Source: Amphibalanus amphitrite (Eukaryota > Arthropoda > Thecostraca > Balanomorpha > Balanidae). From it: a DNA stretch of 64,000 nt. The translations under genes and the position numbers were made by a program. The notes beneath the pieces are model-generated. The model searched no databases, was not told the origin of the DNA, and saw nothing but the letters and a program-made list of their open reading frames with translations. The stretch lies in the NCBI RefSeq assembly GCF_019059575.1, contig NW_024882042.1, positions 310,001 to 374,000 of the forward strand, in the 5' to 3' direction. Below are positions 155 to 49,229 of this stretch, piece by piece (position 1 is the first letter of the stretch; each line of letters opens with the position of its first letter).

Positions 155-3100
155 GTGAGCCCTGGGCGGCTGTGTGCGGCGACCGTGGCAGGGCGGGACT
201 GCTCTGAGGGATCTGGCACCGAAATAACCAGCTCGGTGGAAGTGGAAACCATTTTTGTATTTAAGTATGTGCAGGTGGTGAATTATCTTGAACAAACTCC
301 AAATCTAAGCCTGCTGCCTCTCTGTAGCTTCTTTATCATGGTAGTGCTTTTTGAGTGCATATTGACTATTAAAGCACTCTCCGATACAATACCGGCTATT
401 CTGAGCGTCGCGTCACTTGTGTTAATAAAAGGGAGAGAACATGTTAAAATCGACGCGTGAAACAATCACGTCTCTATCACACAAAAACTAGCCAAAATCA
501 CATAAAACTGTCCACCGCATAGATAGATCATGATACCTGTAAAAATGACGCTATGTGGCGTCTAAAAGCAGATACGGACATGTCGCGGAGATCAGGTGAC
601 AGTTGTAGAGGCGGACTACATGAAACAGGAAGCAGCGCTTGCCTGCGTGCGTGTACAATCCAAGAGAATCCAAATGACAGTTTGCCTAGCTGGGTATTTC
701 GGTACAAGAGTTTCGGTTTCGGTTCTCGGTGGGAGTTGGGCGTCTCCCCTGCGTGTGTGTACTGTCCGTGGAACACAGTCCTTCACCCAGTATCCGACAG
801 TGTATCGTCCGGTGGTCTAACGTGACGTGCGTGTGGTGTTTGTTTTCGTTTTGAATCTCTTTCACGAGTGTTTGTGACGTTCGTCCGTTTAGTGTTTGTT
901 TGGGACGCCCATCTGGCGTTTGTTTGTGATGGCTGTCTGGTGTTTGTGATGGCTGTCTGGTGTTTGTTTCAGCCGAGAAGAGGGACAGTGACCGGTACAA
1001 CCCGTGGCCCAAGTACTTTTTCACTGGTGAGTGCCGCCACCCACAGCCGTGGCATTCGCTCAGCACGCCCAAACCGTGTGAATCTACCGGCCAGACAGCA
1101 GCGACTGTAAGCTGCTGGCTGGCTCTCACTGGAACGCGTAGTACCAAACTCGGGCCTTTCTCTTGATAAAGGGACGTTTTGGTTGGAAGTTTGCTCTTGC
1201 TTAGTGTAATCCGTTGACTGAAGTTAATAGTTGCGCTGCTGATGGGACCAGTTCGTTATGTATCGTGCCAGCGTGGATCTCGACACGGTGGCCACTGGCC
1301 TGACGCCGAGTTGCCGGCCTTCCCCGGCACCACGGCAGTACGGCGGGCGGGCGTTAGTTCCCACTCTGTCCGCCAGGGGCGCTGTGTGGTCAGTGTGGGC
1401 GGGGGCTAGTTCCAGTTCTGTCCGCCAGGGGCGCTGTGCGGTCAGTGTGGGCGGAGATTAGTTCCCGTTTTCTCCGCCAGGTGCGCTGCGCCCGTTCCCG
1501 GTCAGCCCCAAGAGGGAGGTGCCGGAGAGCATACCGCGCACAGACTACGCCGACCACCCCAAAGGTAACAGGGCCGGCCTGCCGGCTGTGAGGGCGCCCG
1601 CGCCGGTCCGCAGTCGCTCCACCACTGCACGTCGGGCCGGCCGCGCTGGGTCAGGGCGGCGACGTGTGCGCTGTAACTGCACTCTCCTAACTGTGCAATC
1701 AGACTACCAGTTGGCTATGTTTGTGTGCGTCGTTGCACTTTAAGTGTATGGTGTTTGTACTTTGTACTGTGTATGTGCTCGCTGTGGCCAGAGGCCCTGC
1801 CTCAGACGCTGTTCAGTCGCTCCTGCCTCAGACGCTGTTCAGTCGCTCCTGCCTCAGACGCTGTTCAGTCGCTCCTGCCTCAGACGCTGTTCAGTCGCTC
1901 CTGCCGCCGCTGTATCTGTTCAGTCGCTCCTGCCCCAGACGCTGTTCAGTCGCTCCTGCCTCAGACGCTGCTCAGTCGCTCCTGCCGCCGCTGTATCTGT
2001 TCAGTCGCTCCTGCCCCAGACGCTGTTCAGTCGCTCCTGCCTCAGACGCTGCTCAGTCGCTCCTGCCGCCGCTGTATCTGTTCAGTCGCTCCTGCCCCAG
2101 ACGCTGTTCAGTCGCTCCTGCCTCAGACGCTGTTCAGTCGCTCCTGCCTCAGACGCTGCTCAGTCGCTCCTGCCGCCGCTGTATCTGTTCAGTCGCTCCT
2201 GCCGCCGCTGTATCTGTTCAGTCGCTCCTGCCTCAGACGCTGCTCAGTCGCTCCTGCCCCAGACGCTGTTCAGTCGCTCCTGCCTCAGACGCTGTTCAGT
2301 CGCTCCTGCCTCAGCCGCTGTTCAGTCGCTCCTGCCTCAGACGCTGTTCAGTCGCTCCTCTGCCTCAGACGCTGTTCAGTCGCTCCTCTGCCTCAGACGC
2401 TGTTCAGTCGCTCCTGCCCCAGACGCTGTTCAGTCGCTCCTGCCTCAGACGCTGCTCAGTCGCTCCTGCCGCCGCTGTATCTGTTCAGTCGCTCCTGCCT
2501 CAGACGCTGCTCAGTCGCTCCTGCCCCAGACGCTGTTCAGTCGCTCCTGCCTCAGACGCTGTTCAGTCGCTCCTGCCGCCGCTGTATCTGTTCAGTCGCT
2601 CCTGCCCCAGACGCTGTTCAGTCGCTCCTGCCTCAGACGCTGCTCAGTCGCTCCTGCCGCCGCTGTATCTGTTCAGTCGCTCCTGCCCCAGACGCTGTTC
2701 AGTCGCTCCTGCCTCAGACGCTGCTCAGTCGCTCCTGCCCCAGACGCTGTTCAGTCGCTCCTGCCTCAGACGCTGTTCAGTCGCTCCTGCCTCAGCCGCT
2801 GTTCAGTCGCTCCTGCCTCAGACGCTGTTCAGTCGCTCCTCTGCCTCAGACGCTGTTCAGTCGCTCCTCTGCCTCAGACGCTGTTCAGTCGCTCCTGCCC
2901 CAGACGCTGTTCAGTCGCTCCTGCCTCAGACACTGCTCAGTCGCTCCTGCCGCCGCTGTATCTGTTCAGTCGCTCCTGCCCCAGACGCTGTTCAGTCGCT
3001 CCTGCCTCAGACGCTGCTCAGTCGCTCCTGCCCCAGACGCTGTTCAGTCGCTCCTGCCTCAGACGCTGTTCAGTCGCTCCTGCCGCCGCTGTATCTGTTC

Positions 3101-6100
3101 AGTCGCTACTCGCTCCTGCCTCAGTCGCTGTTCAGTGTTCAGTCGCTCCTGCCGCCGCTGTATCTGTTCAGTCGCTCCTGCCGCCGCTGTATCTGTTCAG
3201 TCGCTCCTGCCGCCGCTGTATCTGTTCAGTCGCTCCTGCCCCAGACGCTGTTCAGTCGCTCCTGCCCCAGCCGCCGCTGTGTCAGGGGCTCAGTGCCACT
3301 GGTCAGTCGGTCCTGCCTGACACTGTTCCTTGCTCGGGGCGCCGCCGGGCGGGTCGTTTCGGTATGGTACCGGCTGGACACGATGCCTCACCTGCCATTG
3401 ACGTTCAGTCCGTACTGCGGCTGGTACTCTGTCGCCGGTGTGTGTGCGTCCGCCGGTGTCTGTGTGTCAGTGTGTCAGTATCTGTATTCTGTACCGTGCG
3501 CCGCAGGTGGTGTGTCAGTATCTGTATGTATACTGTCCCCCGGCAGGTGTTCCGATCTCGGAGCAGAATGTGTCAGTGTGTCAGTATCTGTATGTATATA
3601 CCGTCCGCCGGCAGGTGTTCCGATCTCGGAGCAGAAGGTGCGCGGCTCGGCCTACATCAAGCCGCTGGACGATGAGGAGGTGGAGGGTATGCGCGTGGCC
3701 TGCCGGCTGGGCCGACAGGTGCTGGAGGAGGCGGCCGCCGCCGTCAGCGTGGGCACCACCACCGACCACATCGACCGCATCGTCCACGAGGCCTGCATAG
3801 AGAGGTGGGACATTTAGACCAGAGGCCTGCATAAGTGCATAGAGAGGTGGGACATAGACCAGAGGCCTGTGTAGAGAGGTGGGACATAGACCAGAGGCCT
3901 GCATAGAGAGGTGGGACATAGACCAGAGGCCTGCATAGAGAGGTGGGACATAGACCAGAGGCCTGTGTAGAGAGAGGGACCAGAGGCCTGCATAGAGAGG
4001 TGGGACCGGGGGACCAGAGGCCTGCGTAGAGGTGGGACGCAGACCAGAGGCCTGCATAGAGAGGTGGGACACAGACCAGAGGCCTGCGTAGAGGTGGGAC
4101 GCAGACCAGAGGCCTGCATAGAGAGGTGGGACATAGACCAGAGGCCTGCGTAGAGAGGTGGGACATAGTTAGACCAGAGGCCTGCATAGAGAGGTGGGAC
4201 CGGGGGGATCAGAGGCCTGCATAAGGAGGTGGGACCAGCCGGGACATGTATAAGGGTGTCTTGGAAAGTCCTGGCGCCCTTTTCGGACGCCGTCTAACGC
4301 GCGCTGTGATTATTGGATATTCAGCCAATCACCACAGACATGACCACTCGTAGACCGCTCAGCTAGGGGTCGTGCAAATATGACCTTGAAACCGTTTTCA
4401 GTGATGGATGGATAGGTGGGCGAAGATGTGCCTTGTCGCTAAATGTCGGCGCGCGGCGGCCCGGTGCAGCTTGAACGAGACGAGAGTTGCAGCGCGATGT
4501 GGCATTTTTCGACGAATGGTTGATCAGGTAAAGGCTTATTTCGACTCAGAAATTCCTTAGAAAATATCCTCAGGCCGGTACGACCGCGGTATGCTAACAC
4601 TGCCAAGAAAGTAGCGGCATTTCAGCGACAATCGAAGAAAATCAGGGGTTTGATGGACAAAAATGTTCCATCATTTTCATCAATGTCAAATAAATGAATA
4701 ACAGGCTGGTCCACGAGGGGTTCCTGGATAGGCACATCAACTCGAGGGTCAAGGCGACTTACCCTAATTAGGCCGGGTCACTTCGCATTTCAACAGCACA
4801 GAGCGCCCTCCAACGGCGCCGCTGCCGTCCAAGCAAAACTGACAGAGGGTCTCGGCGGGCCAGATCACCGTGGTGAAATGAGATTAGGTTAAAGGTTATT
4901 CTCCTAACCTTAACCCGCTCGACTAAGGCGTGCTACGCGTTTGCAGCATAAGCTCTAGGCCACTTCTCGTCCCAACCTGGAGTCGCTGAAGACTCGCATC
5001 ATTACAGTATAGGAGGACCTGGAAATGTCCTACATCGTCAAAACGCGCAGGCGCTTTCGCCCCCGCGTCGAGGCCGTCGTCGGCGCAGATGGTGGTTACG
5101 TTGAATAAGCACTTAGCGGGAGCATGTGGCTTGGTGTCCCTGGTCATTGTGTGGATCTACGATTGAGTGTCTATGAATCAAAGGCATTTGTTTAAAAAAG
5201 TTGAAAGCACCAGGACTTCCCGGACACCCTGTAGGGAGGCGGGATCAGAGACCAGAGGCCTGCATGAAGAGGTGGGACCGGGGTAGGTCACAACTCACAA
5301 GTATTAAACATTGCCGTCAATGGTAAGGCCTATGGATCTAGGGCTGAGCAGTTGGACCACATATCTGTTCCGTGTACAGTGTGTGTGGGGGGGGGGGGGC
5401 CGGGCCTCGCGCCTGTATAGACGGCCTGGGCCGGCGGGCTGACGATACTGGGCGTGTCGGGACGCGCTGACCGGCGTGTGACCTGACCTGGCCGGGGTAC
5501 TGGCCGGCCGGCAGTGAGGCCGCCTCTGGCTGACCTCCCCCCCCCCGTGTCACAGGAAGTGCTACCCGTCTGTGTCTGACCGCCCCCCTCCCATGTCACA
5601 GGGAGTGCTACCCGTCTGTGTCTGACCGCCCCCCCTCCGTGTCACAGGAAGTGCTACCCGTCTGTGTCTGACCGCCCCCCCCCCTCCGTGTCACAGGGAG
5701 TGCTACCCGTCTGTGTCTGACCGCCCGCCCCCCCCCTCCCGTGTCACAGGGAGTGCTACCCGTCTGTGTCTGACCGCCCCCCCCCCCTCCGTGTCACAGG
5801 GAGTGCTACCCGTCTGTGTCTGACCGCCCCCCCCCCTCCGTGTCACAGGGAGTGCTACCCGTCTTTGTCTGACCGCCCCCCCCCCTCCGTGTCACAGGGA
5901 GTGCTACCCGTCTGTGTCTGACCGCCCCCCCCTCCGTGTCACAGGGAGTGCTACCCGTCTGTGTCTGACCGCCCCCCCCCCCTCCGTGTCACAGGGAGTG
6001 CTACCCGTCTGTGTCTGACCGCCCCCCCCCCCCTCCGTGTCACAGGAAGTGCTACCCGTCTGTGTCTGACCGCCCCCCCCCCCCCTCCGTGTCACAGGGA

Positions 6101-9100
6101 GTGCTACCCGTCTGTGTCTGACCGCCCCCCCCCCCCCCCTCCGTGTCACAGGGAGTGCTACCCGTCTGTGTCTGACCGCCCCCCCCCCTCCGTGTCACAG
6201 GGAGTGCTACCCGTCTGTGTCTGACCGCCCCCCCCCCCCCCTCCGTGTCACAGGGAGTGCTACCCGTCTGTGTCTGACCGCCCCCCCCCCTCCGTGTCAC
6301 AGGAAGTGCTACCCGTCTGTGTCTGACCGCCCCCCCCCCCTCCGTGTCACAGGGAGTGCTACCCGTCTGTGTCTGACCGCCCCCCCCCCTCCGTGTCACA
6401 GGGAGTGCTACCCGTCTGTGTCTGACCGCCCCCCCCCCCTCCGTGTCACAGGGAGTGCTACCCGTCAGTGTCTGACCGCCCCCCCCCCCCCCGTGTCACA
6501 GGGAGTGCTACCCGTCGCCGCTCAACTACTACCAGTTCCCCAAGAGCTGCTGCACCTCCGTCAACGAGGTCATCTGCCACGGGATACCGGACGCGCGGCC
6601 GCTCCAGTCGGGAGACATCTGCAACGGTCAGTGGCGGTCGGTCGCGGCGGACCAACGGTCAGTGGCGGGCGGTCGCGGCGGACCAACGGTCAGCCGCAGT
6701 GAACTTGTGGTCAGTCACGGCAGCAGTCAGTGACACCGTGACGTCTTCCACCATTGGCCATGTATCTACATGTATCTGTACATGTATCTGTATTCTGTAC
6801 ATATAACGTCTGCTGACCTCATGTTTGGCCTGTGCTAACCCGTCTGTGACGGCCCTACTGACCGTCTGTGACCTCCACTGACCGATGTCTGACCTCCACT
6901 GACCGGTGTGTGACCCCACTGACCCGTTTCTGACCTCCACTGACCCGTCTTACCTCCACTGACCGGTGTGTGACCCCCACTGACCGATGTGTGACCCCCA
7001 CTGACCGGTGTGTGACCTCCACTGACCGGTGTGTGACCTCCACTGACCGGTGTGTGACCTCCACTGACCGGTGTGTGACCTCCACTGACCGCTGTGTGAC
7101 CTCCACTGACCGGTGTGTGACCTCCACTGACCGGCCTGTGACGGCCCCACTGACCGGTGTGTGACCCCCACTGACCTGTCTGTGACGGGGCCCCACTGAC
7201 CGGTGTGTGACCCCCACTGACCGGTGTGGGACCCCCACTGACCGGTGTGTGACCTCTGACCTGTCTGTGACCTCCACTGACCGGTGTGTGACCCCCACTG
7301 ACCGGTGTGTGACCTCCAGTGACCGGTGTGTGCCCTCCACTGACCGGTGTGTGACCTCCAGTGACCGGTGTGTGCCCTCCACTGACCGGTGTGTGACCTC
7401 CACTGACCGGTGTGTGACCTCCACTGACCGGTGTGCCGCCAGTTGACGTCACCGTCTACCACCGCGGCTTCCACGGCGACCTGAACGAGACGTACCTGGT
7501 GGGCGAGGTGAGCGCCGAGGCGCGCGACCTGGTCAACGTCACCTGGCAGTGCCTCCAGAAGGCCATCGATATCGGTACGTGCCTACGGACCGGCCCTCGC
7601 TCCCTCCCCCGGCCCTCCCCAGTATACAGGGTGAAATGGTTAAATTGAGACAAATTCTGCTTTTCGATAAACTGCTGCCGATTCGCTGATTAACCGCCGC
7701 CGGGTACCTGTATGGTCAGTAACTGTCCCCTCCGTTGTCTGCCCGCCGCCCGGGTGCAGCTCTGTGAGGTCACTGACTGCCCGCTCCGCCGCCCGGGTGC
7801 AGCTGTGTGGTCACTGACTGCCCCCTCCGCCGCCCGGGGACAAGTCTTTGTGTGGTCACTGACTGTCCCCTCCGCCGCCGCCGCCGAGTACTCTGTATGG
7901 TCACTGACTGCCCCCTCCGCCGCCGGGTACCTGTATGGTCACTGACTGTCCCCTCCGCTGTCCGCCCGCCGCCCGGGTGCAGCTCTGTGTAGTCACTGAC
8001 TGCCCGCTCCGCCGCCCGGGGACAAGTCTCTGTATGGTCACTGACTGCCCGCTCCGCCGCCGCCAGTGCGGCCCGGTGAGAAGTACCGCGAGATCGGTCC
8101 CCTCCGCTGCCCCCTCCGCCGCCCGAGTGCAGCTCTGTGAGGTCACTGACTGCCCCCTCCGCCGCCCGGGTACCCTGTATGGTCAGTAACTGCCCCCTCC
8201 GCCGCCGCCAGTGCGGCCCGGCGAAAAGTACCGAGAGATCGGTCCCCTCCTGTGTCCGCCCGCCGCCGGGTACTTTGTATAGTCACTGACTGCCCGCTCC
8301 GCCGCTCGGGTGCAGCTCTGTGTAGTCACTGACTGCCCGCTCCGCCGCCGCCAGTGCGGCCCGGTGAGAAGTACCGTGAGATCGGTAACGTGGTGCAGAA
8401 GCACGCCTCGGAGCGCGGCTACTCTGTGGTGCGCTCCTACTGCGGCCACGGCATCCACCGGCTCTTCCACTGCAGCCCCAACGTGCCGCACTACGCCCGG
8501 AACAAGGCAGCGGGCGTGATGCGGCCCGGGCACTGCTTCACCATAGAGCCCATGATATCGCAGGGTGAGTCACCAATAGTAACTTACCATAGAGCCCATG
8601 ATATCGCAGGGTGAGTCACTATTGTACCATAGGGTAATAACTGACCCACCATAGAGCCTATGATGTCGCAGGGTGAGTCACTTACTGAATATAGAGGCCA
8701 TGATATCGCAGGGTGAGTCACTTACTGAACAGAGTCCATGATATTGCAGGGTGAGTCACAAACTTACCATAGAGCCCATGATATCGCAGGGTGAGTCTTC
8801 TATAGTAACTCACCATAGAGCCCATGATATCGCTGGGTGAGTCACCAACTGAACACAGAGCCCATGATATCGGAGGTTTACTCACAGACTCACCATAGAC
8901 TAGCCCACGGTATCACAGGGTGAGTCACTATCGCACCATAGGGTAAACACTGACGCACCATAGAGCCCATGATGTCGCAGGGTGAAATACCAACTGAGTG
9001 CCCCCGACTCCAGGCCCTGTCTCAGCCCTGACCCCGTGATCCCCGCCCTGTCCCAGCCCTGCGACCCCTGACCCGGCGTGTCACAGTCTCTGACGCCCTG

Positions 9101-9355
9101 ACCGGCGCCGTGTCACAGTCCCCTGACCGCTGTGCCCGGCGCTCCGCCAGGGACGTGGCGCGACGAGCAGTGGCCCGACAACTGGACGGCCGTCACCGCC
9201 GACGGAAAGCTGTCGGCGCAGTTCGAGCACACGCTGCTGGTCACAGGTGAGACTGCCAGACAGACAGACGGACGGACAGACCAGACCAGACGGACTGTCG
9301 GCGCAGTTCGAGCACACACTGCTGGTCACAGGTGAGACAGACGGACGGACAGACG

Positions 9356-9386
<31 letters not shown>

Positions 9387-9442
9387 AGCGCAGTTCGAGC
9401 ACACACTGCTGGTCACAGGTGAGACAGACGGACGGACAGACG

Positions 9443-9473
<31 letters not shown>

Positions 9474-10436
9474 AGCGCAGTTCGAGCACACACTGCTGGT
9501 CACAGGTGAGACGGACGGACGGACGGACGGACAGACGGACATGGCACTGTGTGACACGGTGCCGCTGTGTAGTGTGTGTGACCCGGTGCCGCTGTGTAGT
9601 GTGTGTGACCCGGTGCCGCTCTGTAGTGTGTGTGACCTGTTGCCCCTACATAGCGTTTGTGACCCGGTGCCACTTTGTAGTGTGTGTGACCCGGTGTCCC
9701 TACATAGCGTTTGTGACCCGGTGCCGCTCTGTAGTGTGTGTGACCCGGTGCCGCTGTATAGTGTGTGTGACTCGGTGCCGCTGTGTAGTGTGTGTGACCC
9801 GGTGCCCCTATATAGTGTGTGTGACCCGGTGCCCCTATATAGTGTGTGTGACCCGCTGCCGCTCTGTAGTGTGTGTGAGCCGGTGTCCCTATATACCGTG
9901 TGTGACCCGTTGCCCCTATATAGTGTGTGTGACCCGCTGCCGCTCTGTAGTGTGTGTGAGCCGGTGTCCCTATATAGTGTGTGTGACCCGGTGCCGCTGT
10001 GTACATATAGTGTGTGACCCGGTGCCGCTCTGTAGTGTGTGTGACCCGGTGCCCCTATATACCGTGTGTGACCCGGTCCCCCATATGGTGTGTGTGACCC
10101 GGTGCCGCTGTGTAGTGTGTGTGATCCGGTGCCACTGTAGTGTGTGTGACCCGGTGCCACTGTGTATAGTGTGTGTGACCCGGTGCCGCTGTGTAGTGTG
10201 TGTGACCCGGTGCCGCTCTGTAGCGTTTGTGACCCGCTGCCGCTGTGTAGGTGTGTGACCCGGTGCCACTGTGTATAGTGTGTGTGACCCGGTGCCGTTG
10301 TGTAGTGTGTGTGACCCGGTGCCGCTGTGTATAGCGTTTGTGACCCGGTGCCGCTGCGCCCGCAGAGACCGGAGTGGACGTACTCACCAAGCGGGAAGGC
10401 ACCACGCTGCCGCGCTTCCTGGACTCGTCCTCGTGA
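106..10436 (+). CDS. METAP1: Methionine aminopeptidase 1, nine exons, 5' partial
   Basis: Cytosolic metallo-aminopeptidase that removes the initiator methionine from nascent proteins. Exons: 106-154, 973-1026, 1481-1564, 3615-3804, 6502-6626, 7443-7574, 8355-8564, 9151-9246 and 10366-10436. They join in one frame with GT-AG introns into 1011 nt (336 residues plus stop). The window starts inside the N-terminal zinc-finger region ([16 protein letters not shown]); the catalytic pita-bread fold runs from the fourth exon on. All five family metal ligands are visible: Asp in VDVTV, Asp in HGDLNET, His in CGHGIH, Glu in FTIEP, Glu in QFEHT. The conserved His of EVICHGIP is also present. Compared with roughly 386 residues in vertebrates, about 40-50 N-terminal residues lie upstream of the window. 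The introns are almost wholly minisatellite. The gene is convergent with MCU. Confidence 0.96.
910..972 (+). repeat. Small tandem duplication in METAP1 intron before 973
   Basis: GGCTGTCTGGTGTTTGTGAT is repeated, and the second copy runs into the polypyrimidine tract TGTTTGTTTCAG. No exon bases are copied at this junction. Confidence 0.7.
973..1026 (+). CDS. METAP1: METAP1 exon: linker ([10 protein letters not shown])
   Basis: Follows acceptor TTTCAG at 967-972 and precedes GTGAGT at 1027. Phase 1 to phase 1. It encodes [19 protein letters not shown], corresponding to the DPW..YRYTG linker of the family. Confidence 0.9.
1350..1490 (+). repeat. Acceptor-spanning tandem repeat (51-53 bp, 3 copies)
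   Basis: TCTGTCCGCCAG followed by GGGCGCTG occurs with AG ends at 1376, 1427 and, as the real acceptor, 1480 (CCGCCAG then GTGCGCTG). The unit therefore holds the acceptor and the first eight or so exon bases. Spacing is 51 and 53 bp. Confidence 0.85.
1481..1564 (+). CDS. METAP1: METAP1 exon: proline-rich linker
   Basis: Acceptor CCGCCAG ends at 1480; donor GTAACA at 1565. It encodes [14 protein letters not shown] then [12 protein letters not shown]. The family hallmark DYADHP lies just before the catalytic domain. Confidence 0.92.
1790..3290 (+). repeat. 26/29-bp minisatellite, about 1.5 kb
   Basis: The unit TCCTGCCTCAGACGCTGTTC plus AGTCGC (26 bp) is mixed with a 29-bp variant containing CCGCCGCTGTATCTG, in higher-order blocks, for roughly 55 units. 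It contains no stop in any forward frame, so three overlapping open frames of 531-698 codons cross it. These are artefacts of the repeat inside a METAP1 intron. Confidence 0.95.
3440..3614 (+). repeat. Acceptor-spanning duplication before METAP1 exon 3615
   Basis: TGTGTCAGTATCTGTATGTA recurs several times. One full copy of the junction, CGGCAG then GTGTTCCGATCTCGGAGCAG, lies at about 3541-3568, ahead of the true one (AG at 3613-3614). It copies the acceptor and about 22 exon bases. Confidence 0.85.
3615..3804 (+). CDS. METAP1: METAP1 exon: start of catalytic domain
   Basis: Acceptor GGCAG ends at 3614; donor GTGGGA at 3805. Phase 1 in, phase 2 out. It encodes the first helix pair: [20 protein letters not shown], then [18 protein letters not shown]. 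Confidence 0.95.
3786..4240 (+). repeat. Donor-spanning minisatellite after METAP1 exon 3615-3804
   Basis: The last exon bases plus donor (GAGGCCTGCATAGAGAG then GTGGGA) repeat about a dozen times with an approximately 32-bp period and an ACATAGACCA spacer. A further copy lies at 5240-5285, beyond an inserted transposon. Confidence 0.9.
4253..5231 (+). mobile_element. Tc1/mariner-like element with TA flanks, 979 bp
   Basis: Terminal inverted repeats start AGGGTGTCTTGGAAAGTCCT on the left and CAGGGTGTCCGGGAAGTCCT on the right (reverse strand). TA dinucleotides lie at 4251-4252 and 5232-5233. The length and the GGGTGTC ends fit mariner/Tc1-type elements. No intact transposase is readable; the longest frame inside (4923-5147, minus) has no motif I recognise. 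It sits inside the donor minisatellite, which resumes at 5240. Confidence 0.75.
5240..5285 (+). repeat. Detached copy of METAP1 donor repeat
   Basis: CCAGAGGCCTGCATGAAGAG then GTGGGACCGGGG. It is the same unit as 3786-4240, separated from it by the 4253-5231 element. Confidence 0.8.
5545..6501 (+). repeat. Acceptor-spanning minisatellite, about 19 copies
   Basis: The unit (about 46-53 bp) reads GTGTCACAG, GGAGTGCTACCCGTC, TGTGTCTGACCG, then a C tract of 7-14 and TCC. It repeats the true 3' splice site (AG at 6500-6501) and the first 16 bases of METAP1 exon 6502-6626. Length varies mainly in the C tract. The final copy is the real exon. Confidence 0.95.
6502..6626 (+). CDS. METAP1: METAP1 exon: [21 protein letters not shown] segment
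   Basis: Acceptor GTCACAG ends at 6501; donor GTCAGT at 6627. It contains [20 protein letters not shown] with the conserved substrate-pocket His. The acceptor and first 16 bases of this exon are copied about 19 times upstream. Confidence 0.95.
6620..6696 (+). repeat. Donor-spanning triplication after METAP1 exon 6502-6626
   Basis: CAACG then GTCAGTGGCGG occurs at 6622 (true junction) and about 6652, with a shortened copy near 6685. The period is about 30-33 bp. Confidence 0.8.
6840..7440 (+). repeat. 21-bp minisatellite, about 27 copies
   Basis: The unit is TGACCTCCACTGACCGGTGTG with ACCCCCA variants. It runs up to the acceptor at 7441-7442. No exon bases are copied. Open frames in both directions are artefacts. 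Confidence 0.95.
7443..7574 (+). CDS. METAP1: METAP1 exon: first two metal-binding Asp
   Basis: Acceptor GCCGCCAG ends at 7442; donor GTACGT at 7575. It encodes [17 protein letters not shown] and continues to QKAIDI. Both metal-bridging aspartates (VDVT and HGDLNET) are here. Confidence 0.95.
7700..8354 (+). repeat. Acceptor- and exon-spanning repeats before METAP1 exon 8355
   Basis: CACTGACTGCCCCCTCCGCC blocks repeat through the intron. Two diverged copies of the junction and about 30 exon bases (CCAG then TGCGGCCCGG..AAGTACCG.GAGATCGGT) lie near 8065-8098 and 8209-8243, ahead of the real exon. Confidence 0.9.
8355..8564 (+). CDS. METAP1: METAP1 exon: metal-binding His and first Glu
   Basis: Acceptor GCCAG ends at 8354; donor GTGAGT at 8565. 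It encodes [44 protein letters not shown] and HCFTIEPM. It holds the metal ligand His of CGHGIH and Glu of TIEP. Confidence 0.96.
8540..8995 (+). repeat. Donor-spanning repeat after METAP1 exon 8355-8564
   Basis: ACCATAGAGCCCATGATATC then GCAG and GGTGAGTCAC is repeated about ten times with spacing of about 40-75 bp and some point changes. It copies about 25 exon bases and the donor. Confidence 0.9.
9151..9246 (+). CDS. METAP1: METAP1 exon: final metal-binding Glu
   Basis: Acceptor CTCCGCCAG ends at 9150; donor GTGAGA at 9247. It encodes [18 protein letters not shown] then [11 protein letters not shown], carrying the last metal ligand Glu of QFEHT. Confidence 0.95.
9218..9535 (+). repeat. 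Donor-spanning repeat after METAP1 exon 9151-9246
   Basis: GCGCAGTTCGAGCACAC and CTGCTGGTCACAG then GTGAGAC recur three times after the true junction (near 9301, 9389 and 9476), separated by GACGGACGGACA/GACA tracts. About 30 exon bases, including the codon for the last metal ligand, are copied each time. Confidence 0.92.
9540..10350 (+). repeat. 27-bp minisatellite, about 30 copies
   Basis: The unit TGTGTGTGACCCGGTGCCGC plus TGTGTAG fills the last METAP1 intron up to the acceptor. There is no exon copy. Open frames on both strands are repeat artefacts. Confidence 0.95.
10366..10436 (+). CDS. METAP1: METAP1 terminal exon with stop
   Basis: Acceptor CCCGCAG ends at 10365. It encodes [14 protein letters not shown] then LPRFLDSSS and TGA at 10434-10436. 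This matches the family C-terminus (TGCEILTRR..) and diverges in the last residues, as is usual. Confidence 0.93.
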
Positions 10437-11076: not shown

Positions 11077-11939
11077 GACCGGCAGAGCGACACGTGGATT
11101 CGCGGGTTCGATCCTTTACAGTGACAGAGTTTTCACGGCACGGAGTGCCCGCACGATCCGCCCGGCGGTTGTCGGATGAAGCCGCGGACACTGGAAGCTC
11201 GGGGTTAACAGTGGCGCGCCGTCCCCGGTCCGCGGTCCGTGGTCCGGCGCACAGTGTGGCCAAACGCCAGATTAGCGCGAATTAAATCAAAAAACGAATT
11301 TTGGAATTTTGACTTTTTATAACTATCAGTCGATAGGAAATTGTCCAAAGTATGTCAATAGCACAATACTTTGGTTCAATGTCTTCCCTTCGGTGTCCAA
11401 AAAGCTAGCTAAAGTGGACATACGCAATGCCGGTCCCGGCTGTGCTGAAATCGTCGAAAACCCGCGTCACGTTAACAACACATTTTGGCGTAATTGTCGG
11501 AAAGGTTCGGGAATAATTGGATTGGCATATGACTACTGAGCCTATATTTGATAGTATACCCGAATTCTATAGTTATCCTTGGACTAACCGATGAGCTATA
11601 CTCATTTGAAAATGACCTTTTCAGACATCCCCTGAAAACACTGTCCATCTTAAAAACGTAGAGATATAAGAAAATGGCCAAAAAACTCCACGCCAAATCT
11701 ACCATGAGAAGATTCGCCACACTTTTCTGGACATGATCCATTCAAGAAACCCTGCCCCAACCTGCCCCCCGGCCTTTGGCTCAGCTTTGAACGTATCGGG
11801 TTGGGCCGCCCGGGGAGGTCCGGCTACAGGGTGGGCGCGGCGGCGGCTCCGTAACGTGTTACGCGGATGGCTCAACCGCTGTATTTCTGACTTGTTATAT
11901 TGCAGAATACGGTCGCCAATGAATAAATCTTGGCAATTT

Positions 11940-12530
11940 TTAACCCTCGCCCATATAGGGGGTGAGGGTGGGGGTCGAAAGGACCCCTCTCGGTTTTTCG
12001 CAAAAAGCTCATGTAAAAAGCGGCCAATCGCGACGAAACTTTCAGTACCCTCGAGTTTATCAATTTTACACCTAACCTTTAAATTTCACGACCCTGACCC
12101 CAATGACCTTTGACCTGTGACCTATTTCTCGAGACCGTGTTTGGCCGGAATCGCGATTGGGTGTATGTTTGCTTGCATTAGCCGCGCGTTTGCAGTCTTT
12201 TCGTGGTTTCAAGCGTCTTAACATGTGATATTATGATGTTCGTCCCATGCATTATGGTCAGTGACAAGATCACTTGAAGGTCAGGTCAGTTCAATGACCT
12301 TTGATGAGCTCGGTTCACCTTTTTTAGTTTTACATGCTTCCAGGCTAGTTTTTGGAGCTGATTTCGAATTTAGTAACCATTTGAACATTTAGGAAGACGT
12401 TTTGGTACCTTCGTAACATGCAACGAAGCTGTCACTGGCGGTTGACAGTTGACACCTATTAATTATGAATACCCGGCAGGACTGGTTGGCCTAACCTGAC
12501 CTGACCCGACCTACGTTCGCGGCTAGCAAA
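11940..12530. mobile_element. TTAA-CCCTCGCCC family element, truncated copy
   Basis: Begins TTAA then CCCTCGCCC at 11940-11952. The following 590 bases match, in reverse orientation, 43430-43860 and 50267-50582, sharing segments such as TTTGGCCGGAATCGCGATT and the TTCGTAACATG region. TTAA targets with CCCT ends resemble piggyBac-type elements. It is non-coding. Confidence 0.7.
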
Positions 12531-12839
12531 ACACCAATACCGCCGAGGGTTAATGACATGAAGGTGCTTATGGTGTAAGTCTTTGTTTTTACTCCCATTG
12601 CTGAGGTTCAATCCTATCGGTACGTGTATGTAGTTCAGCAACCGTCTACCGATTCACGTGCTTCACCAGGAACATTCACACAGAAACATAATTAGATGTT
12701 GATCTTTTTCAAGCAAACTTTGGACAATCATAAGAATTTACCAGAGAAATGATGGAAATTTCGTAAACGATTCCTCCTCCTAACATGCCCATCATTGCTG
12801 GGACCCACAATTTTATGCCTCTTATTTGCGGTTAAATTC

Positions 12840-13107
12840 CAGGATTTCGTAATCAGAGTCGGAGTCGCTCGGAGTCAACAGTTCTGACCCCAGTCAGAGT
12901 CGGAATCGGAATCGATTTTGGAATCCGGACCAAGACTCGTAGTCTTGAGTCACCGAAAATCCATCGACTGCGTGAACTTGCCATGGCTGCGGAGTCAGAG
13001 TCCGAGTTGATCGTATAAGTCGACAGTTTTGCCCGGAGTCAAAGTTGAAATTGACGTTTGAAAGCCGTAGTCGGAGTCGGAGTAACTCCATCGACTTCAC
13101 AGCCCTG
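12840..13107 (-). mobile_element. hAT-like MITE remnant (CAGGGCTGTGAAGTCGATGG end)
   Basis: On the minus strand it starts CAGGGCTGTGAAGTCGATGG at 13107 and is rich in GACTCCGACT motifs. This form is typical of non-autonomous hAT elements in many animals. The other end (near 12840) is weak and no 8-bp duplication is evident. Confidence 0.55.
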
Positions 13108-13320
13108 GTAAGCACATCACCCGTCGTAAGCTAGTTCTCCTTACTTTTAGAGGCGGAACTATGCCATTACCTATTTGTCAGCAAGCATTTATGATGCATC
13201 GTAAAGGGTCTCACATAGGTTTAAGTGTCAATTTTGAAACCAGCGAACCATTTTCAACGGATCCGAGCAGCGCTGGGATTAAATTCGCGCTAAACTGGTG
13301 TTTGGCCACACTGTGCGGCG

Positions 13321-13746
<426 letters not shown>

Positions 13747-16199: not shown

Positions 16200-19100
16200 C
16201 TGGGGAGAGACGCAGAGAGACAGACTGTCAGACGGAGAGAGACAGAGACACGGGGAGGTGTCAGACGGAGAGAGACAGAGACACGGACAGACTGTCAGAC
16301 GGAGAGAGACAGAGACACGGGGAGGCTGTCAGACGGAGAGAGACAGAGACACAGACAGACTGTCAGACGAAGAGAGACAGAAACACAGAGAGGTCAGACG
16401 GAGAGAGACATACACGGGGAGGATGTCAGACGGAGAGAGAGACAGAGACACGGACTGTCAGACGGAGAGAGACAGAGACACAGAGAGGCTGTCAGACGGA
16501 GAGAGACAGAGACACGGACAGACTGCCAGACGGAGAGAGACATACACGGGGAGGATGTCAGACGGAGAGAGAGACAGAGACACGGACTGTCAGACGGAGA
16601 GAGACAGAGACACAGAGAGGCTGTCAGACGGAGAGAGACAGAGACACGGAGAGGTTGTCAGATGGATAGAGAAGAGACACGGGGAGGTGTCAGATGGATA
16701 GAGACAGAGACACGGGGAGGTGTCAGATGGATAGAGACAGAGACACGGGAGGCTGTTAGAGACTCGACAGAGATACAGAGACAGACAGAGAGAATGTCAG
16801 GGACCAGCAAAGACAGAAAGCACAGACCGACAGATGCACGGACACAGATACTGCGGGACACGACCACGGAGGCTGTCAGAGACACCATGGCTGCCAAGCC
16901 AGTGACTCGTTCAATAAAACTAACACCTAACTAGGGTCTGACTTTGACCCAGAGGGACCCCAGCTCTGTGACTGTGGGCCGTGGGGGGTCTGTCACCTGC
17001 AGGGGGTCCCGGAGCTGTGTGTGTGTGTGGGGGGGGGGGGGGCTGTCACCTGCAGGGGTCCCGCAGCCGCTGTGTGCAGGGGGTCCCGGAGCTGTGTGTG
17101 AGGGGGAGGCTGTCACCTGCAGGGGGTCCCGGAGCTGGGGGGGGGGCTGTCACCTGCAGGGGGTCCCGCAGCCGCTGTGTGTGTGTGTGGGGGGGGGGGG
17201 CAGTGTGGCCAAATCCATTTTGCGTTTGGGGGAGGATGTAGAAAAAAAGCCGCCAGAGGATGTAACTATTTTTTTGAAAAAATGGTCTACTGATTTTTTT
17301 AAGTTCTAATTTTCATAGAAAAGGTGGGAAATGGCCTTACTAACATTCAGTACTGATGTATCTTTGAATAAAGCACTTCAGTGATACATATGTAGAAATA
17401 GCAATCCTTTTTAAGACAATCGTTTAATAGGAACAACTTCAACGGCCACTGGTCATTTGCCAACCACCACCTTCCCGATGCTGATTCTCCTTACTCTATT
17501 CCAGGCATATTCCTCATCCATTCCTGAAAGAAGATCGCGAGCCTTCCAATTTCCAAGCACTCCTGTCATCATCGTGAACCTACGAATCCATCAAGATCCC
17601 TACTGCCAGATGACCTCGGACACCGACGTCTGCTCCCCGAAGATACAGCTGCGCATACTGCATAACTATTCACGTTTTATAAAATGTAAATGCATAGTGC
17701 TGTGTTTAATAGGTTACTCTCGAATCAATCGAATTAATCGACTATACGACCATTTCTGAATCAGTTATTGTATCAACATTGCATCAGTATAGGAATCAGA
17801 ATTGCATCGATTATGAGAACTAAGAAAAGTTATCACTAATATAAAATGTTGACCGATATGGCCAGTGGCCAGTACAACTCCCGATGTCATCCTCGACATT
17901 AATGTCCTAGTGCATATCCCAGAATCCAACCGCAACTGTGATCTTGGGTTCAATGTGTGCGATGAATTTACTCATTACTGTGTGTAGTAACGGCAACTGA
18001 GGGGAAAATAAAATGCAATAAGGTACCGAAACGTCCATATCGCCGATCTTTTTTTGGGCTGGGTAACACTGAACTAGAAGAGTTGGTCGAACGGATGAGA
18101 TGAGCGCATTTTGTCACCGTTATATCGCTGGCCAGATCGCAAATCCATATCCAGACGAGACAACATATGTCGACGAGCTGCACCAACTAAGGTGATGAGT
18201 CCGCACCAGCCCGACGGACTCTAACAGAGCTAACAGAGCTGGAAAAACACACCTACATCTAGCAAGACCTAGAGCTATTACTGAATAGGTCATAAAATAT
18301 TTACCAGCTTATCACACTTTTTTAGGGGAAAACACCATAGCCGGTCATTTCGACGCGTTTTTTCCAAACCCTGATCTTCTTCCCGTGAATTGCCCGGAAG
18401 CACGAAAAATCCAATTTAAAAAGTCCAATCAATTATTCGATCCTGATCAAGTATCAAGCATGTGAGCTTGTTCTGACATTGCTTGATCTGCTGAGACAGA
18501 CAAACTTCAGAAAACCGAGTCACTGTATTTTACTCAAGCTTTTTTCAACCTGTCGGAAATTTACGTGAGAACAGATACCTATAGAGTTTGAAGGAAAAAA
18601 ACACGGCGATTTATTCCCTGCTCAACCTGTTGTGGGTCTCATAGTTCACCCTATCATTTCCTTTTCCTAGCACTACAGGGTATGTGCTCAGTCTCACACC
18701 GAAGTTCACGATACCATGTTGGTTGGGCACAAAAAAAATCGTACCACACGACAGCGGATCAGCTGTGCTGTACAACACACCAGCGTCTAGCTGAGTGCAT
18801 TCACGCCGACATCTCATCGAGATTGTCATGCTTTGCAGGTAAGGAGTCTATGGTAGGTTCACAAATCAGTCACATGAGTCACGAATGGTGGTATGACTGA
18901 CTGGGGCCAATTCACCAATCAGTTCGATTACGAGTCTGAACGCATAGTGCACGGCGCGTCTTGGTTGTTTCGTTTTGGACGTCTGCCAGTAGGTGGCTCT
19001 GTAAACACCACAACCTAGTCAATAGATGTCGCCATAATGTACTATGCAGTTGTTGTGAAGTTGAAAAGATTTCATAATGTACCTATATTGCTCAGTATTT

Positions 19101-22100
19101 TCCTCATTAATTAAAACACCCCTCACCTAGGTACCACTGCAATTATAAGTAGTGTTTTGCAATGAATAAGTGCCTAGTTATGTTGAATTAGAAATGTAGA
19201 TCGCTTTAAATTTACACACAGCTCCAAATCCCTGAAATGATTAGGTACCATCTGAATCAGATCAGGCTTCAGAATGAAGCAGTTCAATACATCATCATAG
19301 TTCAAATGGTGTTTGCAAATGCCAGAATGCAGTTTCTTCATTAAGATTTTTTCACACACTAAAGCAATGATTGATGTAATGAAATCTGCATACCCGTCAC
19401 ATCTGCCTTCACATTAACATTTCATCAAATGTCCAATATTAACAGATCACTCCTCAATATAAGAAATCTTTAGTAAATGTGAATATGAAGTCCAGTGAAT
19501 ATTTTGAACATAACCTAACCTGATGTAACCTTACCTAGCTACCTATCAACCTAAAACTTTCAACCTGGCTGTCCCAACTCAAAACCTATTACCTACAACC
19601 TACAACCTTAAGCCCACAACCTATCTACACATAAACCAAATTTTATCATACCAGATACCTATATATATATCAATCTGTAAGAATCTGGCCAGATGCCTAC
19701 ATTTCTTTCAGTCAGAATGCACAGAGTAGATGGGTGGTAACTAGTAATGAAAAATCTTTGAAACTAGAGGGTTTTTACTAGCAATGACAATGTCATTGCT
19801 GAGGTGCTAATCCAAAATATTAATAATTAACTTAACAGAACCAGCCAACATCACTGGAAATGTCTTCTGAGTTCTGATTGTTGGTTGGTTGTTGTTTTTA
19901 GGTAATATGTATTTTTGAAGTATATGAATGTATCAAATCAGATAAAATAACAGATGCACACAAATGAAATTTTAACTGATGCCTTATATATTTGTGAATG
20001 AGCTCAACATCCAGGTTCGGTTGCGGATTCCTGATGATGGCAAGAGCTAAAGGCTCGAAATGCTGAGAAACGTTCTTACCTGAGGCTGTGTTCCTGTTCC
20101 ATGCTTCTCCAAAGCAATCTCAGTCTACGCTCTCCACCTACAAATAACAAACGTGCATGCATAGACCAACATCATCCCAACTTTAACTGAGATCTTTCCA
20201 GGATCAAGGTCTTAGGTCCCTGTACCTTATAGCTTGCAAGTATTGCTATCAGTTCTATTACAATTACGCTTCTATCAAATACTGAAATAAGGCAACAAGG
20301 CCACAACACAACACTGCTTGTCTATTCAATTTAATTTCTCGAATCGTTTGTATGGAGCAAATGTTTCGGTTTTCCTCGTCTACAAAATATTGTACAAGAT
20401 TATCAATCTCGACGCACCTGTCGAACTTCGCGGCCTCCGTATTACCATGGATGAAGTAGTACCATGTAGGTAATCCATGGTATTACGTCACACGATTTCA
20501 GAGATTTTCGGCAGAAAAACTTCCGACATCCCTAAAACAGCGGCTCACGAAAGCCAGCCAAACGTGAAAATTAAGACAATACAGCCGGTAAAATGATGAT
20601 AATATTGTAGGGAAATCAATAAAGCATGATATATGTGAATACCAAATCACAAAAATGGTTTTTCACAGTTTGGCGAAGAGTTGAAGTTAGGGGTTGTTAG
20701 GGGTAGAATTTCGCCAAAACAGGCGAAGGATGTCATTATATTTGAACATGTCAAAATAGAGTATTGTGGGCTTAATATCAGTTTTGATGCATAGGTGGGC
20801 ATAATTCATCAATTTTCTTTCACTTTGTATAACATTTAGCTCGTAAAATGAGCCTGGGAATTAACAATTTCATTTCTTCAGAAGCCATTTTTTTCCGCAA
20901 AATCAGCGGATTTTTCGCATGAAAATGACGGAAGTTTACGGGGCTCAAAAACAAGCATTTCGCATATTTTCCAAGAAAATGACCGCGTATGCAATGTATT
21001 ATTTCATTTTCTTTCGTATTATCTAATTTTCTCGTCTTGGTTTGGTCGATTAGCGGTGCTGTCCCCATTATAAGTTAGGGGTTGTTAGGGGGAAAATAAC
21101 GACTTCCTTCGGGATTTTGACTTCCCGATAACGACTTCCTTTTTGGCCACCGGTGACGTAACAGGCTGAACAAAGCACGCCAGGGCGGTGGTGCATGATG
21201 TATGAAGAGTCAACAGGGGATTATTGTGTCTTTGATGGCCTTGAATCTCGAACGACTGCTTGTGTTGTGGACGCTGTGGATGCATTGGTGTTGTGTCCGA
21301 GGGGTTTGTGCTTATCCTGATTTTCAGTGGTTGTGTTTGAGCTTAGTTTTGCTTTTATTCTTTGCGATCAATTGATAACTATTGTATATTAATCCGAGTC
21401 TGGTCCAAGGCTATATGCTGTATCTGTGCTGGGTGAGCAGCGATTGAAATTGAAATTGAAATAGCCTAGTTGTTTGTACAATTCAATTTGTGATTTCCTT
21501 ACCAAACCTGTGCATGTTGTTTGGTAGGTAAGTACAAACTCAGCTCCAAAAGTCAAGACACTGGAATATAATGCAGTTTTTATTTTGTCACAATCACATC
21601 ACCCATGCAGCATCAGCATGCTGATTTCAACTGCTAATGCCATGCACCTATATTTTATATCAATATTGCCAGAACATAAGAATATGAATATTGCTTAAAA
21701 TTGTATATGCCTATATTCAAATTGGCGCTCATTGAGACAGAGGTATTTTATGACCTAGCAAGAAGTTGCCAAACACATTGATGCTTGCAGAACAGTATGA
21801 TATATTTAAGTGAAAAAGTCGTGAGGATGTCTTTTTCCCAATTTTTAGGATGTCATTATCCTTTTCATTAGGGGAGGATTTCCCCACAACATTGCCAATT
21901 TGGCCACACTGGTGGGGGGGGGGGGGCTGTCACCTGCAGGGGGTCCCGCAGCCGCTGTGTGTGTGGGGGGGGGGGGGCGGGGGGTCACCCGCAGGGGTCC
22001 CGTCCCGGAGCTGTGGGACGGGGGTATTTTCACCTACAGGGGGTCCCGGAGCTGTGTGTGGGGGGATCTGGGGGTCCCGGAGCTGTGTGTGGGGGGATCT

Positions 22101-25100
22101 GGGGGTCCCGGAGCTGTGTGTGGGGGATCTGGGGGTCCCGGAGCTGTGTGTGTGTGTGGTGTGTGCAGGGGGGGGGGAGCCTGTCACCTGCAGTGGGTCC
22201 CGCAGCCGCCGCAGGTCCTGCTCCAGCCGGTAGATGGAGTCCCGCAGCTCGTTGTAGGCCTGTACGTCCAGGCCGGACTTGCGGCTCTTCTTGTAGAAGG
22301 ACAGCAGGAAGGAGCGGTCCTTGACGTCGGGAAGCACGTAGTCCTGGCGGCCGGACGGCGGACGGCGTCAGTGGTAAACTCACAGCACACAGTCTGTATA
22401 CAACACACCACAGCTACCACAGACCGGCCGGGCGGCGGACGGCGTCAGTGGGGGGCTCACAGCACACAGTCTGCATATGACACACCACAGCTACCACAGA
22501 CCGGCCGGACGGCGGACGGCGTCAGTGGGGGGCTCACAGCACACAGTCTGTATACAACACACCACAGCACCCCCCCCCCCCCTCCCCGAGACCGGCCGGG
22601 CGGCGGACGGCGTCAGTGGTAAACTCACAGCACACAGAGTCAGCATACAACACAGCGCGGACACCCTGGAGGGCGGACACAGCGCGGACACAGCCTGCCG
22701 ATCCGACACACAGCGGCTACCGTACTGCAGGCCGTGGATCTCTCACCTGTTTGGTGATGACGAAGTAACCGTAGGCGGCCATGGCGGTGCCGTAGGTGAC
22801 GAAGTAGGTGACGGGCTCCATGATGTCCCACGAGTACTCCCACCAGGTCAGCCGCGCCAGGATCCCTGGACGGCGGGGTACATCGTCAGTACCTACATTA
22901 ACAGCCGGTCAGTACAGTACGCGCCAGGATCCCTGGACGGCGGGGCACATCGTCAGTACATCAACAGCCGGTCAGTAAATAGCACTGCCTCACTACTCAG
23001 TACAGCGACCAGTTACCTTCAGCCGGTACTGACTGTTACGTCACCTAAAACAACGGCAACAATAAAACCATGAATAATGTCAGTGCCAGATATCTCCACT
23101 ATAGGAAGCAGCCCAGTTTGTTACACTGGCGGCGCACTCCGCTATAGGCGGCGGCTCGCGTGCCGGTCTCACCGAACTGGACGCCCATCAGGCCGAGGCC
23201 CAGCCAGGTCTGCAGGTTGGTCCGCCGGTGGCACGCCTCCTCCAGCTCCTTCTTCTTCTGCGGACGGTCAAAAGACGGGCGGTCAAAAGACGGACGGTCA
23301 AAAGACGGGCGGTCAAAAGACGGACGGTCAAAAGACGGACGGTCAAAAGACGGACGGTCAAAAGACGGACGGTCAAAAGACGGACGGTCAAAAGACGGAC
23401 GGTCAAAAGGCGGACGGTCAAAAGACGGACGGTCAAAAGACGGACGGTCAAAAGACGGACGGTCAGAGGGACGGACGGTCAGGGGGGCGGACGGTCAAAA
23501 GACGGACGGTCAAAGTGACGGACGGTCAAAAGACGGACGGTTAAAGTGACGGACAGTCAGAGCCGGGACAGAGGGACGGGCGGTCAGAGGGCCGGTCAGA
23601 GGGGCGGGCGGTCAGAGGAACAGTGAGGGTCGGTCAGAGGGAGGGACAGAGGGGGCGAGCGGTCAGAGGGGCGGAGACAACCGGAGGGACCGGACGGCCA
23701 AAAGGACGGGGGTAGTTGGACAGACAAGAATCAATGTGTCCAGTGTCCACACATCTCCTCTCCTGACTCTGTTCCCACAGCCGTCTCTATCCGTCCGTCA
23801 GTCCCGCTCGGAGCGGTGAACAGTCTGACCCACCTTCTCCATGGGCGCCAGCTGCACCTTGAGGTCCTCCAGCTTGGCCAGGATCTCGCGCTCCTTTTTC
23901 AGCTGGTGCTCCTCCACGTTGAGCGCCTCGTACAGCTGCGACACCAGGTTCCGCACGTTGGAGAGCGTGGTGAGCTCCTCCTGCGGGCGGCACACAGTGA
24001 CCGGGGTCAGCGCGGCACGGACAGCACGGACAGCCGGAGTCAGCGCGGCATGGTCAGCGCGGACAGCCGGAGTCTACGGCACACAGTGACCGCGGTCAGC
24101 GCAGCATGGCCAGCGCGGACGGTAGGGACAGTAGGGACAGCATGATCACCCGGGGTCAGCAGAGCACAGACAGCAGAACACGGACAGACGGGGTCAGCGC
24201 AGCACGGACAGCGGCAATGGCCGTAAAAAAACTCAGTATGACCCCGTACCGCCCACCCCGCGTGCGCTGAAAATGCGCTCTTTGTGATGGTGATAACTGA
24301 ACCGCTCTCTGTGAATACGTCTGGATTATCTAACGGCTTTCGCTGATTAAAGTAGGCGGTGAAATATGATCGGATGAAAGGCAAGATGTGGCTGCGGTCT
24401 GCAGACCGACCAGATATGTTCAGAAAAGCGGTAACATGTGGTCTGATAGATGGTATCATGAATGAGCCTTCCGGTGACTACCTGTACATAGGACGGCCCA
24501 GAGTGCTTGTCGAACTAGAAAAATACTACCTCGAGTTGCTTAACGGCCATCTTAGATCTAAAACTGTATGTGATCGTCGACAATAATGGCGAGAGAAAAG
24601 TCCCCCCCCCCCCCCTATCGACTATAAACAGCACTATCGGCTATATTACTGACAGATGTTCCTGTGTCAATTGACCTCTCGACTATATGACTATATGACA
24701 CTGACCGGGTGCTGCCACTCTCGCCCACCGGACCCCCTAATTCCTCTAAGCCCCAGACGCCACTTGATTCTCTCTCCGGCGACTGTAGACGCCGCCCGGT
24801 CCCGCCCAGTACACGGCACGGGGATTGCCGCGCCGTTTGGCGCCAAATTGGCCAACACTCATCTGCATAATGAGCGCCGAGAGCCGTCGCGCAGACGGCG
24901 CCCCGCTCCGGACGGTAACAACGGCCACGGCGCCCCGCTCCGGACGGTACCGCAGACGGCGCCCCGCCCCGGACGGTAACACCGGGCGGCGGCGCCCGCT
25001 CCGGACGGTAACACCGGGCGGCGGACGGCTCCGGACGTTATCGCGCAGACGGCGCCCCGCTCCGGACGGTACCGTCGGACTGCAAATGGCACCGGCCCGC

Positions 25101-38345: not shown

Positions 38346-38894
38346 GCACGCGCTGCAGACTATTCACTATTCAGTCAGAGCAAGAGGCTCTCATTGAATG
38401 CGCCCTCAGTACAAGTGTGAAGTGAGCATGAAGTTTACACAGTGGAACGACTCACAGGCACGATTAGACAGTGAACATGAATCAATAACAGATTATTCCG
38501 AAAAGAAGTACTGCTCATGCTGTGCCAACTGAGCCGGCGGTAAATAATAGAGGACCAGCAGAAGGACTCGTTTGGCGGTCAGAAATGTTCAAACACAGCA
38601 GCCGGCCGGGAGCTAGCTGCTGAGAGCTGACCCGGAGCTGGGAGCCGCTGCTGACCCGGAGCTGGGAGCCGCTGGCCCGGGAGGAAGCTGCCGTTCACCC
38701 GCTCAGCAGGTGGCGCGTAACTGCAGGCCGCGAGTCCGCCGATTTCGTACACCAGTGATCCCGGTCGGCTGCCGCGGTACCGACTCCTGACCTCCCTTAC
38801 GGTGTCAGCCCCGAGGGCGCCGCTCGCTGGCCGTCCCTACTCCCCGGACCACGGTGGCTCGTCCCGGTCAGACTACCGCCTGGATGGGATCAGC

Positions 38895-39375: not shown

Positions 39376-39690
39376 CCTGCCCGTGTTCGTGGAGCAGTCC
39401 CTGCTGTATTATCGAGTAAGGATTTACCCATTCACTGCGCCGGCTGACTGGCGGCCCTATCCTTTGTTTGCTCTATTGTCGTCCGTCGCCCGCCGCGGCG
39501 GTGCCCAGGCCCGGGGGTCGCCTGGCGCAGCGGGGGGTAGCGTCCCGCCCCGCGGCCCCTGGCGCGGCGAGAGGTAACATGCCGCGGCGCACGGCACGGC
39601 GGGCCGCCGCCGCCGCCGCCGCCGAGGGAGTGGACGCTGACAAGGATGAGGGCCGTGGGCCCGTGGCATCACCTGGGTTTGTATGGATTT
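39376..39690. other. GC-rich flank of the left 61-bp array
   Basis: An open frame continues from the array to CTGTATTATCGA followed by GTAAGG, a plausible donor, but it matches nothing I know. It ends with a (GCC)n run near 39600-39625. Confidence 0.3.
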
Positions 39691-49205: not shown

Positions 49206-49229
49206 TTACCAACGTAACGCATAAGGCAT

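Follow-up and report, generated by a model that had tools for sequence, protein, structure and literature searches.

Junction-spanning minisatellite arrays in the METAP1 and MCU genes of the barnacle Amphibalanus amphitrite

Closest described systems

Minisatellite-like tandem duplications that cross an exon–intron boundary, on the 5′ and the 3′ side, have been described in amphioxus under the name of mirages (PMC3087553, PMC3902484). As far as the excerpts of these reports go, the genes concerned are Adh3 and the globins BflGb6 and BflGb9 (PMC3087553), together with troponin C and, for similar repeats, PGBD5 (PMC3902484). According to the same excerpts, the units measure 10–72 bp in Adh3 and 150–160 bp in the globins (PMC3087553), many units carry an AG or a GT, and splicing is reported to be regular (PMC3087553, PMC3902484). 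Intron gain by tandem duplication has been described in cases including ATP2A1 and potato RdRp, and in the excerpted account the potato duplication held a branch site and a tract (PMC4974935). CeRep25B of C. elegans is, in the excerpt available, an intronic minisatellite near splice decisions, a single family that occurs in several genes (PMC4039745).

The arrays described here, in the introns of two barnacle genes, have the structural features of a mirage as excerpted: the unit spans the boundary, donor and acceptor sides are both affected, and the unit is of minisatellite size (about 32–145 bp). The kind is already named, and the observation is sound; the sequence-only reading of this DNA had known of no standard description, whereas the amphioxus repeats, as far as the excerpts show them, are the same structure (PMC3087553, PMC3902484). 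Compared with amphioxus as excerpted, the host and the density differ, with seven of 17 junctions affected in METAP1 and three of 14 in MCU, and on the barnacle side a branch-point-like CTRAC is found in the units of eight of 12 acceptor-reaching arrays. Length instability between haplotypes or cells also counts among the features of mirages; the barnacle arrays are known from one sequence only. A tandem duplication crossing splice signals is shared with the excerpted ATP2A1 and RdRp cases; unlike these, the barnacle has existing introns in which their own edges are repeated. Similarly, the location of a minisatellite within introns near splice decisions recalls CeRep25B as excerpted, from which the barnacle arrays differ in that each junction has its own unit, exon bases included. 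No report of junction-spanning repeats in barnacles was found in the open-licence PMC literature, and the term 'tandem repeat' is absent from the barnacle genome papers PMC8917513, PMC8270832 and PMC11331182; as far as that literature goes, the barnacle appears to be new as a host of mirages.

The two host genes

The window, i.e., the whole stretch of 64,000 nucleotides that was analysed, carries METAP1 on the plus strand. Its exons, spliced from the window, encode 336 residues that are 100% identical over the full length to P0001, the annotated 'methionine aminopeptidase 1-like [Amphibalanus amphitrite]', which served for exon placement and assigns the window to the striped acorn barnacle; the first residues of the protein are encoded to the left of the window.

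106–154, 973–1026, 1481–1564, 3615–3804, 6502–6626, plus strand: METAP1 exons 1–5 in the window (spliced match to P0001)
7443–7574, 8355–8564, 9151–9246, 10366–10436, plus strand: METAP1 exons 6–9 in the window (spliced match to P0001)

P0001 is free of any decoy-derived sequence. P0002, considered as a possible barnacle protein with translated decoys, was set aside, as it has an internal duplication and 55% identity. The long open frame at 1691–3814 was rejected as coding, since the repeat that it crosses is poor in stops and leaves three frames open.

The second gene, which lay outside the earlier finding, is MCU, the mitochondrial calcium uniporter, on the minus strand. It was identified by solved relatives and by matches to Pfam PF04678 in three frames, of which the third stayed below the cut-off. 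Joining its exons gives a match to P0121, a protein of 375 residues that is listed as a product of the window.

26007–25837, 25321–25203, 23980–23834, 23257–23173, minus strand: MCU exons (PF04678, match to P0121)
22865–22747, 22343–22188, 16199–16089, minus strand: MCU exons (PF04678, match to P0121)
about 64000–63900, minus strand: upstream MCU exon at the right window edge

The Pfam scans, with hits accepted to E 0.01, took in 16 of the 18 frame-stretches of 11–26, 26–40 and 50–64 kb, one of these 16 from 14 kb on, and could have overlooked a further gene in the remaining two third frames or at 40–50 kb; a match to a bacterial lipoprotein model was weak, below the cut-off, and was disregarded.

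Junction arrays in METAP1

Arrays were called with Tandem Repeats Finder (TRF), with the junctions taken from spliced METAP1. In addition, each of the 31 junctions (METAP1 17, MCU 14) was represented by a probe with 12 bases of exon and 12 of intron, for which the best copy was sought in the adjacent intron, over at most 1500 bases.

1345–1488, plus strand: acceptor-type array, 52-bp unit, 2.8 copies, about 8 exon bases past acceptor 1481 (TRF; probe 19/24)
3470–3640, plus strand: acceptor-type repeat, 68-bp unit in a short complex block, about 26 exon bases past acceptor 3615 (TRF 3510–3640; probe 23/24)
3794–4235, plus strand: donor-type array, 32-bp unit, about 12 copies, exon tail and donor 3805 (TRF 3794–3965, then 3836–4235; probe 22/24)
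5537–6516, plus strand: acceptor-type array, unit of about 49 bp, about 20 copies, acceptor 6502 (TRF; probe 24/24)
6622–6693, plus strand: weak donor-type repeat, 31-bp unit, 2.3 copies, about 5 exon bases, donor 6627 (TRF)
6857–7435, plus strand: array of 21-bp units with CTGAC, ending just before acceptor 7443, no exon bases (TRF, block list)
7743–8386, plus strand: acceptor-type compound array, real acceptor 8355 (TRF 7948–8386; probe 24/24)
8541–8990, plus strand: donor-type array, units of about 40 bp, exon tail and donor 8565 (probe 23/24, block list)
9216–9541, plus strand: donor-type array, 87-bp unit, 3.8 copies, 31 exon bases and donor 9247 (TRF; probe 21/24)

The sequence-only reading had named seven METAP1 junctions at which the repeat unit includes the splice site together with exon bases, and all seven are confirmed, with probe scores of 19–24 of 24. 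The weakest is acceptor 1481 (19/24), with two decoys in a 16-base test and none in a 30-base test. The 8–30 exon bases per unit that had been given agree with the range of 5 to 32 by TRF coordinates. A shorter donor triplication placed at 6626 is real as a repeat (31-bp unit, 2.3 copies); however, it holds only about 5 exon bases and gave no hit in either junction-probe test (24-base ungapped, 20+20 gapped). Junction-free arrays also exist elsewhere in the introns, as had been stated, and units seeded at junctions, with decoy sites adjoining the exons, are likewise supported.

At acceptor 6502, the units contain CTGAC followed by a tract rich in C, then CAG with 15 bases of the exon, and the real acceptor is the last copy. 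The array at 8355 contains a 145-bp superunit that includes about 30 exon bases, seen in the two decoys at 8067 and 8212. At donor 8565, TRF places the start at 8650, yet the units begin inside the exon.

As a separate observation, decoys 8067 and 8212 each have about 32 exon bases ending in ATCG-GT, so that each resembles a 30-base mini-exon; by eye, the few positions at which they depart from the real exon are all synonymous.

Junction arrays in MCU

25555–25853, minus strand: donor-type array, 33-bp unit, 9 copies, exon end 25837, donor 25836 (TRF, probe)
22849–22981, minus strand: acceptor-type duplication, copies 67 bp apart, at least 12 exon bases, acceptor 22865 (probe, block list, gapped test)
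21910–22213, minus strand: donor-type array, exon end 22188, donor 22187 (probe, block list)
25300–25440, minus strand: possible degenerate acceptor-type copy upstream of acceptor 25321 (gapped score 32, by eye)

The gapped score of 32 at acceptor 25321 is borderline, being reached by two of 476 controls. Further copies of the donor 22187 array are found at about 16980–17206, beyond a 4.7-kb insert.

The presence of junction arrays in two genes, and on both strands, argues against repeats that were inflated or misjoined in the draft genome, as do the differences among units in substitutions and length and the reading frame kept by the joined exons. One amphioxus mirage locus was aberrantly assembled in a draft according to the excerpted account of the globin authors (PMC3087553), which lends this explanation some weight; even so, an assembly artefact is highly improbable here.

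Probe tests and copy profile

Copies scoring at least 19 of 24 were present in the own intron for 10 of the 31 junctions (METAP1 7/17, MCU 3/14), and these ten are split evenly between five acceptors and five donors. They comprise METAP1 acceptors 1481, 3615, 6502 and 8355, METAP1 donors 3805, 8565 and 9247, MCU donors 25836 and 22187, and MCU acceptor 22865, with unit sizes of about 32–145 bp. The best scores at the remaining 21 junctions, taken over the two genes, were 11–16 of 24. None of the 794 non-cognate pairs of probe and intron reached 19 (maximum 18), and reversed probes gave a maximum of 16; since non-cognate probes found no match, each junction has its own unit. The gapped test with 20+20-base probes returned the identical ten positives, above all 476 cross-gene controls.

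The position of the probe was also varied, with a 24-mer counted as copied at 20 of 24 or more. Copies were found for 12–15 of 30 or 31 junctions at 18–96 bases inside the intron, for 9/31 at the junction itself, for 6/31 at 12 bases into the exon and for 0/31 at 30 bases into the exon. This profile is expected if duplications arise everywhere, with those inside exons being purged and those that cross the edge tolerated; taken alone, it is no demonstration of a hot spot at the exon edge.

Placement of arrays relative to junctions

A null distribution was obtained by placing the array blocks of eight METAP1 and seven MCU introns at random within their own introns, with 30, 40 or 60 bases allowed into exons and three detection thresholds, i.e., nine settings per gene. 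Block ends at most 6 bases from a junction, or past it, numbered 9–11 in METAP1 against 4.1–4.9 expected (p at most 0.0024) and 6–7 in MCU against 1.5–2.7 expected (p at most 0.01). Arrays are anchored at junctions in both genes. METAP1 had been picked for its striking looks and MCU had not, so that MCU is the fairer test of bias. Blocks with at least 8 exon bases numbered 6–8 in METAP1 against 2.9–3.9 expected (p 0.0007–0.09) and 3 in MCU against 0.9–2.1 expected (p 0.05–0.35); the surplus of exon-containing units alone is weak and not firm. The exon overlap had a mean share of 0.34 of the unit, versus 0.5 for uniform breakpoints (Kolmogorov–Smirnov p 0.037), over ten cases entered by hand that include 6627 and leave out MCU 22187.

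These figures bear on the simplest alternative, chance overlap, in which minisatellite-filled introns contain some units that happen to include a junction, with no bias. It draws on the high repeat coverage of the METAP1 introns (6124 of 9320 bases lie in tandem repeats), on the lower copy count at the junction than 18–96 bases inside the intron, and on the modest excess of exon-containing blocks. However, the reach of arrays to junctions beats random placement in both genes and at all nine settings, and we regard chance overlap as rather unlikely. Preferred nucleation at exon edges, one of the two causes put forward in the sequence-only reading, thus has partial support: arrays reach junctions above random in both genes, but the exon-containing excess is weak. 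Its other cause, tolerance of duplications at exon edges, is the best-supported reason for junction-spanning arrays.

Content and conservation of the decoys

CTRAC is a branch-point-like motif that corresponds to the branch-point consensus. It lies 12–50 bases upstream of nine of 16 acceptors, compared with 12% of random places. The 12 acceptor-reaching arrays (4953 bases), hand-picked from the array block list, hold CTRAC 95 times in sense and 10 times in antisense orientation, versus 3 and 4 times, respectively, in seven donor arrays (2012 bases). Units of eight of the 12 carry it on the sense strand; it is absent from that strand in the other four, all in METAP1 and including the exon-containing arrays at 1481 and 3615. 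Many of the acceptor decoys, though not all of them, are thus whole 3′ splice modules. The CTRAC content partly follows from the fact that these arrays reach acceptors, and so it is no independent proof of preferred nucleation.

A search at 12 junctions found 59 intronic copies that keep AG or GT with at most 3 differences in 16 bases, although chance may account for a few of those with 3 differences. Splicing at any one of the 59 would put the reading frame out or introduce a stop, as is expected for intron extensions, and accurate splice-site choice is therefore needed. At METAP1 6502 alone, 19 upstream copies have 0 or 1 mismatch to the real acceptor in 16-base probes, and the annotated protein uses only the last of the copies.

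Selection might maintain such decoys in a back-up or enhancing role in splicing, with multiple branch points, tracts and donors on offer. With a 30-base probe, all but two of 57 decoys (55) retain their GT or AG, and mismatches are fewer in the splice core (10/421) than elsewhere (184/1289), a comparison that is biased by the alignment around the junction. In unit alignments of five arrays, however, the diversity of the splice core was not clearly below that of the rest of the unit, a share of 0.19–0.54 of slid windows being as low or lower. Unique changes in the exon parts comprised 11 synonymous and 17 others (39% synonymous against 29% expected at random), which gives little sign of coding constraint. 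Back-up selection was rejected as the main cause on the diversity of the splice core in these alignments, and is on the whole improbable. The related suggestion in the earlier reading, restoration of a valid splice site by the extra copies, found no support either, as the decoy cores are not clearly more conserved than the rest of the unit. Judged from their sequence, the decoys look neutral, neither clearly kept nor eroded.

Direction of copying and proposed mechanism

The exon parts of the METAP1 arrays encode the cores CYPS, PG--YR, IEPMIS and AQFE-TLLVT (a dash marks a variable position), which are invariant in eight aligned proteins, P0001 and seven relatives. Since these exon parts are conserved in relatives, the exon sequence came first and was then copied into the introns; copying thus ran from the exon edge to the intron in METAP1, the gene that was checked. 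The reverse, exons captured from repeats, was rejected, the METAP1 exon parts being conserved protein.

The same alignment bears on whether the arrays are first steps of intron gain, or of intron sliding by tandem duplication of the Rogers type. Such duplications supply new splice sites, and in the excerpted report a duplication spanning an intron–exon boundary gave rise to an intron in potato (PMC4974935); the amphioxus authors, in the excerpt available, propose a duplication origin for globin introns (PMC3087553). Against this, METAP1 and the seven relatives differ by only small gaps at variable sites, and so no new coding segment is seen, which makes intron gain or sliding a very unlikely account of the barnacle arrays.

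We consider the arrays to be, quite probably, junction-spanning minisatellites, or mirages, that grew from tolerated tandem duplications across junctions. The starting event would be a tandem duplication whose unit crosses an exon–intron boundary. If splicing still joins the outermost sites, i.e., the 5′-most donor and the 3′-most acceptor, the extra copies would all lie inside the intron and the mRNA would be unchanged, so that junction-crossing duplications would be nearly neutral; duplications within exons, by contrast, would not be neutral and would be removed. Slippage or unequal exchange could then expand junction duplications into whole series of decoy splice sites, which would be unused and neutral, and splice-site modules may be somewhat favoured as duplication units. 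Junction arrays could help to explain how cells pick the right site among near-identical ones, and near-identical decoys in series offer a natural experiment on splice-site choice.

A broader reading, which we hold as tentative and doubtful, is that tandem duplication in barnacles favours the splice-site module as its unit across most genes, the module being either branch point, tract, AG and exon head or else exon tail and donor, with a large share of exons flanked by series of near-identical decoys and the spliceosome choosing by position. If it is true, the spliceosome must pick the outermost site by position and not by sequence. The basis for any genome-wide habit is here two genes of one window in one draft sequence.

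Other repeats of the window

The MCU donor array at 22187 is split by a low-GC insert at 17201–21914, whose ends are inverted (CAGTGTGGCCAAAT, by eye). In appearance this insert is a DNA transposon that arrived after the donor array had formed. A stretch at about 11253–13312, between METAP1 and MCU, has inverted CACAGTGTGGCCAAAC-like ends (by eye) and is possibly related to this insert. The long MCU intron contains a 12.7-kb segment (38844–51526) between inverted arms of 436–494 nt, which are built of a 61-bp tandem array and are 93–97% complementary; its interior has a GC content of 41–47% and no ATG/GTG/TTG open frame of more than 127 aa. Finally, 58 AC dinucleotides form a perfect run at 13628–13743, also between METAP1 and MCU.
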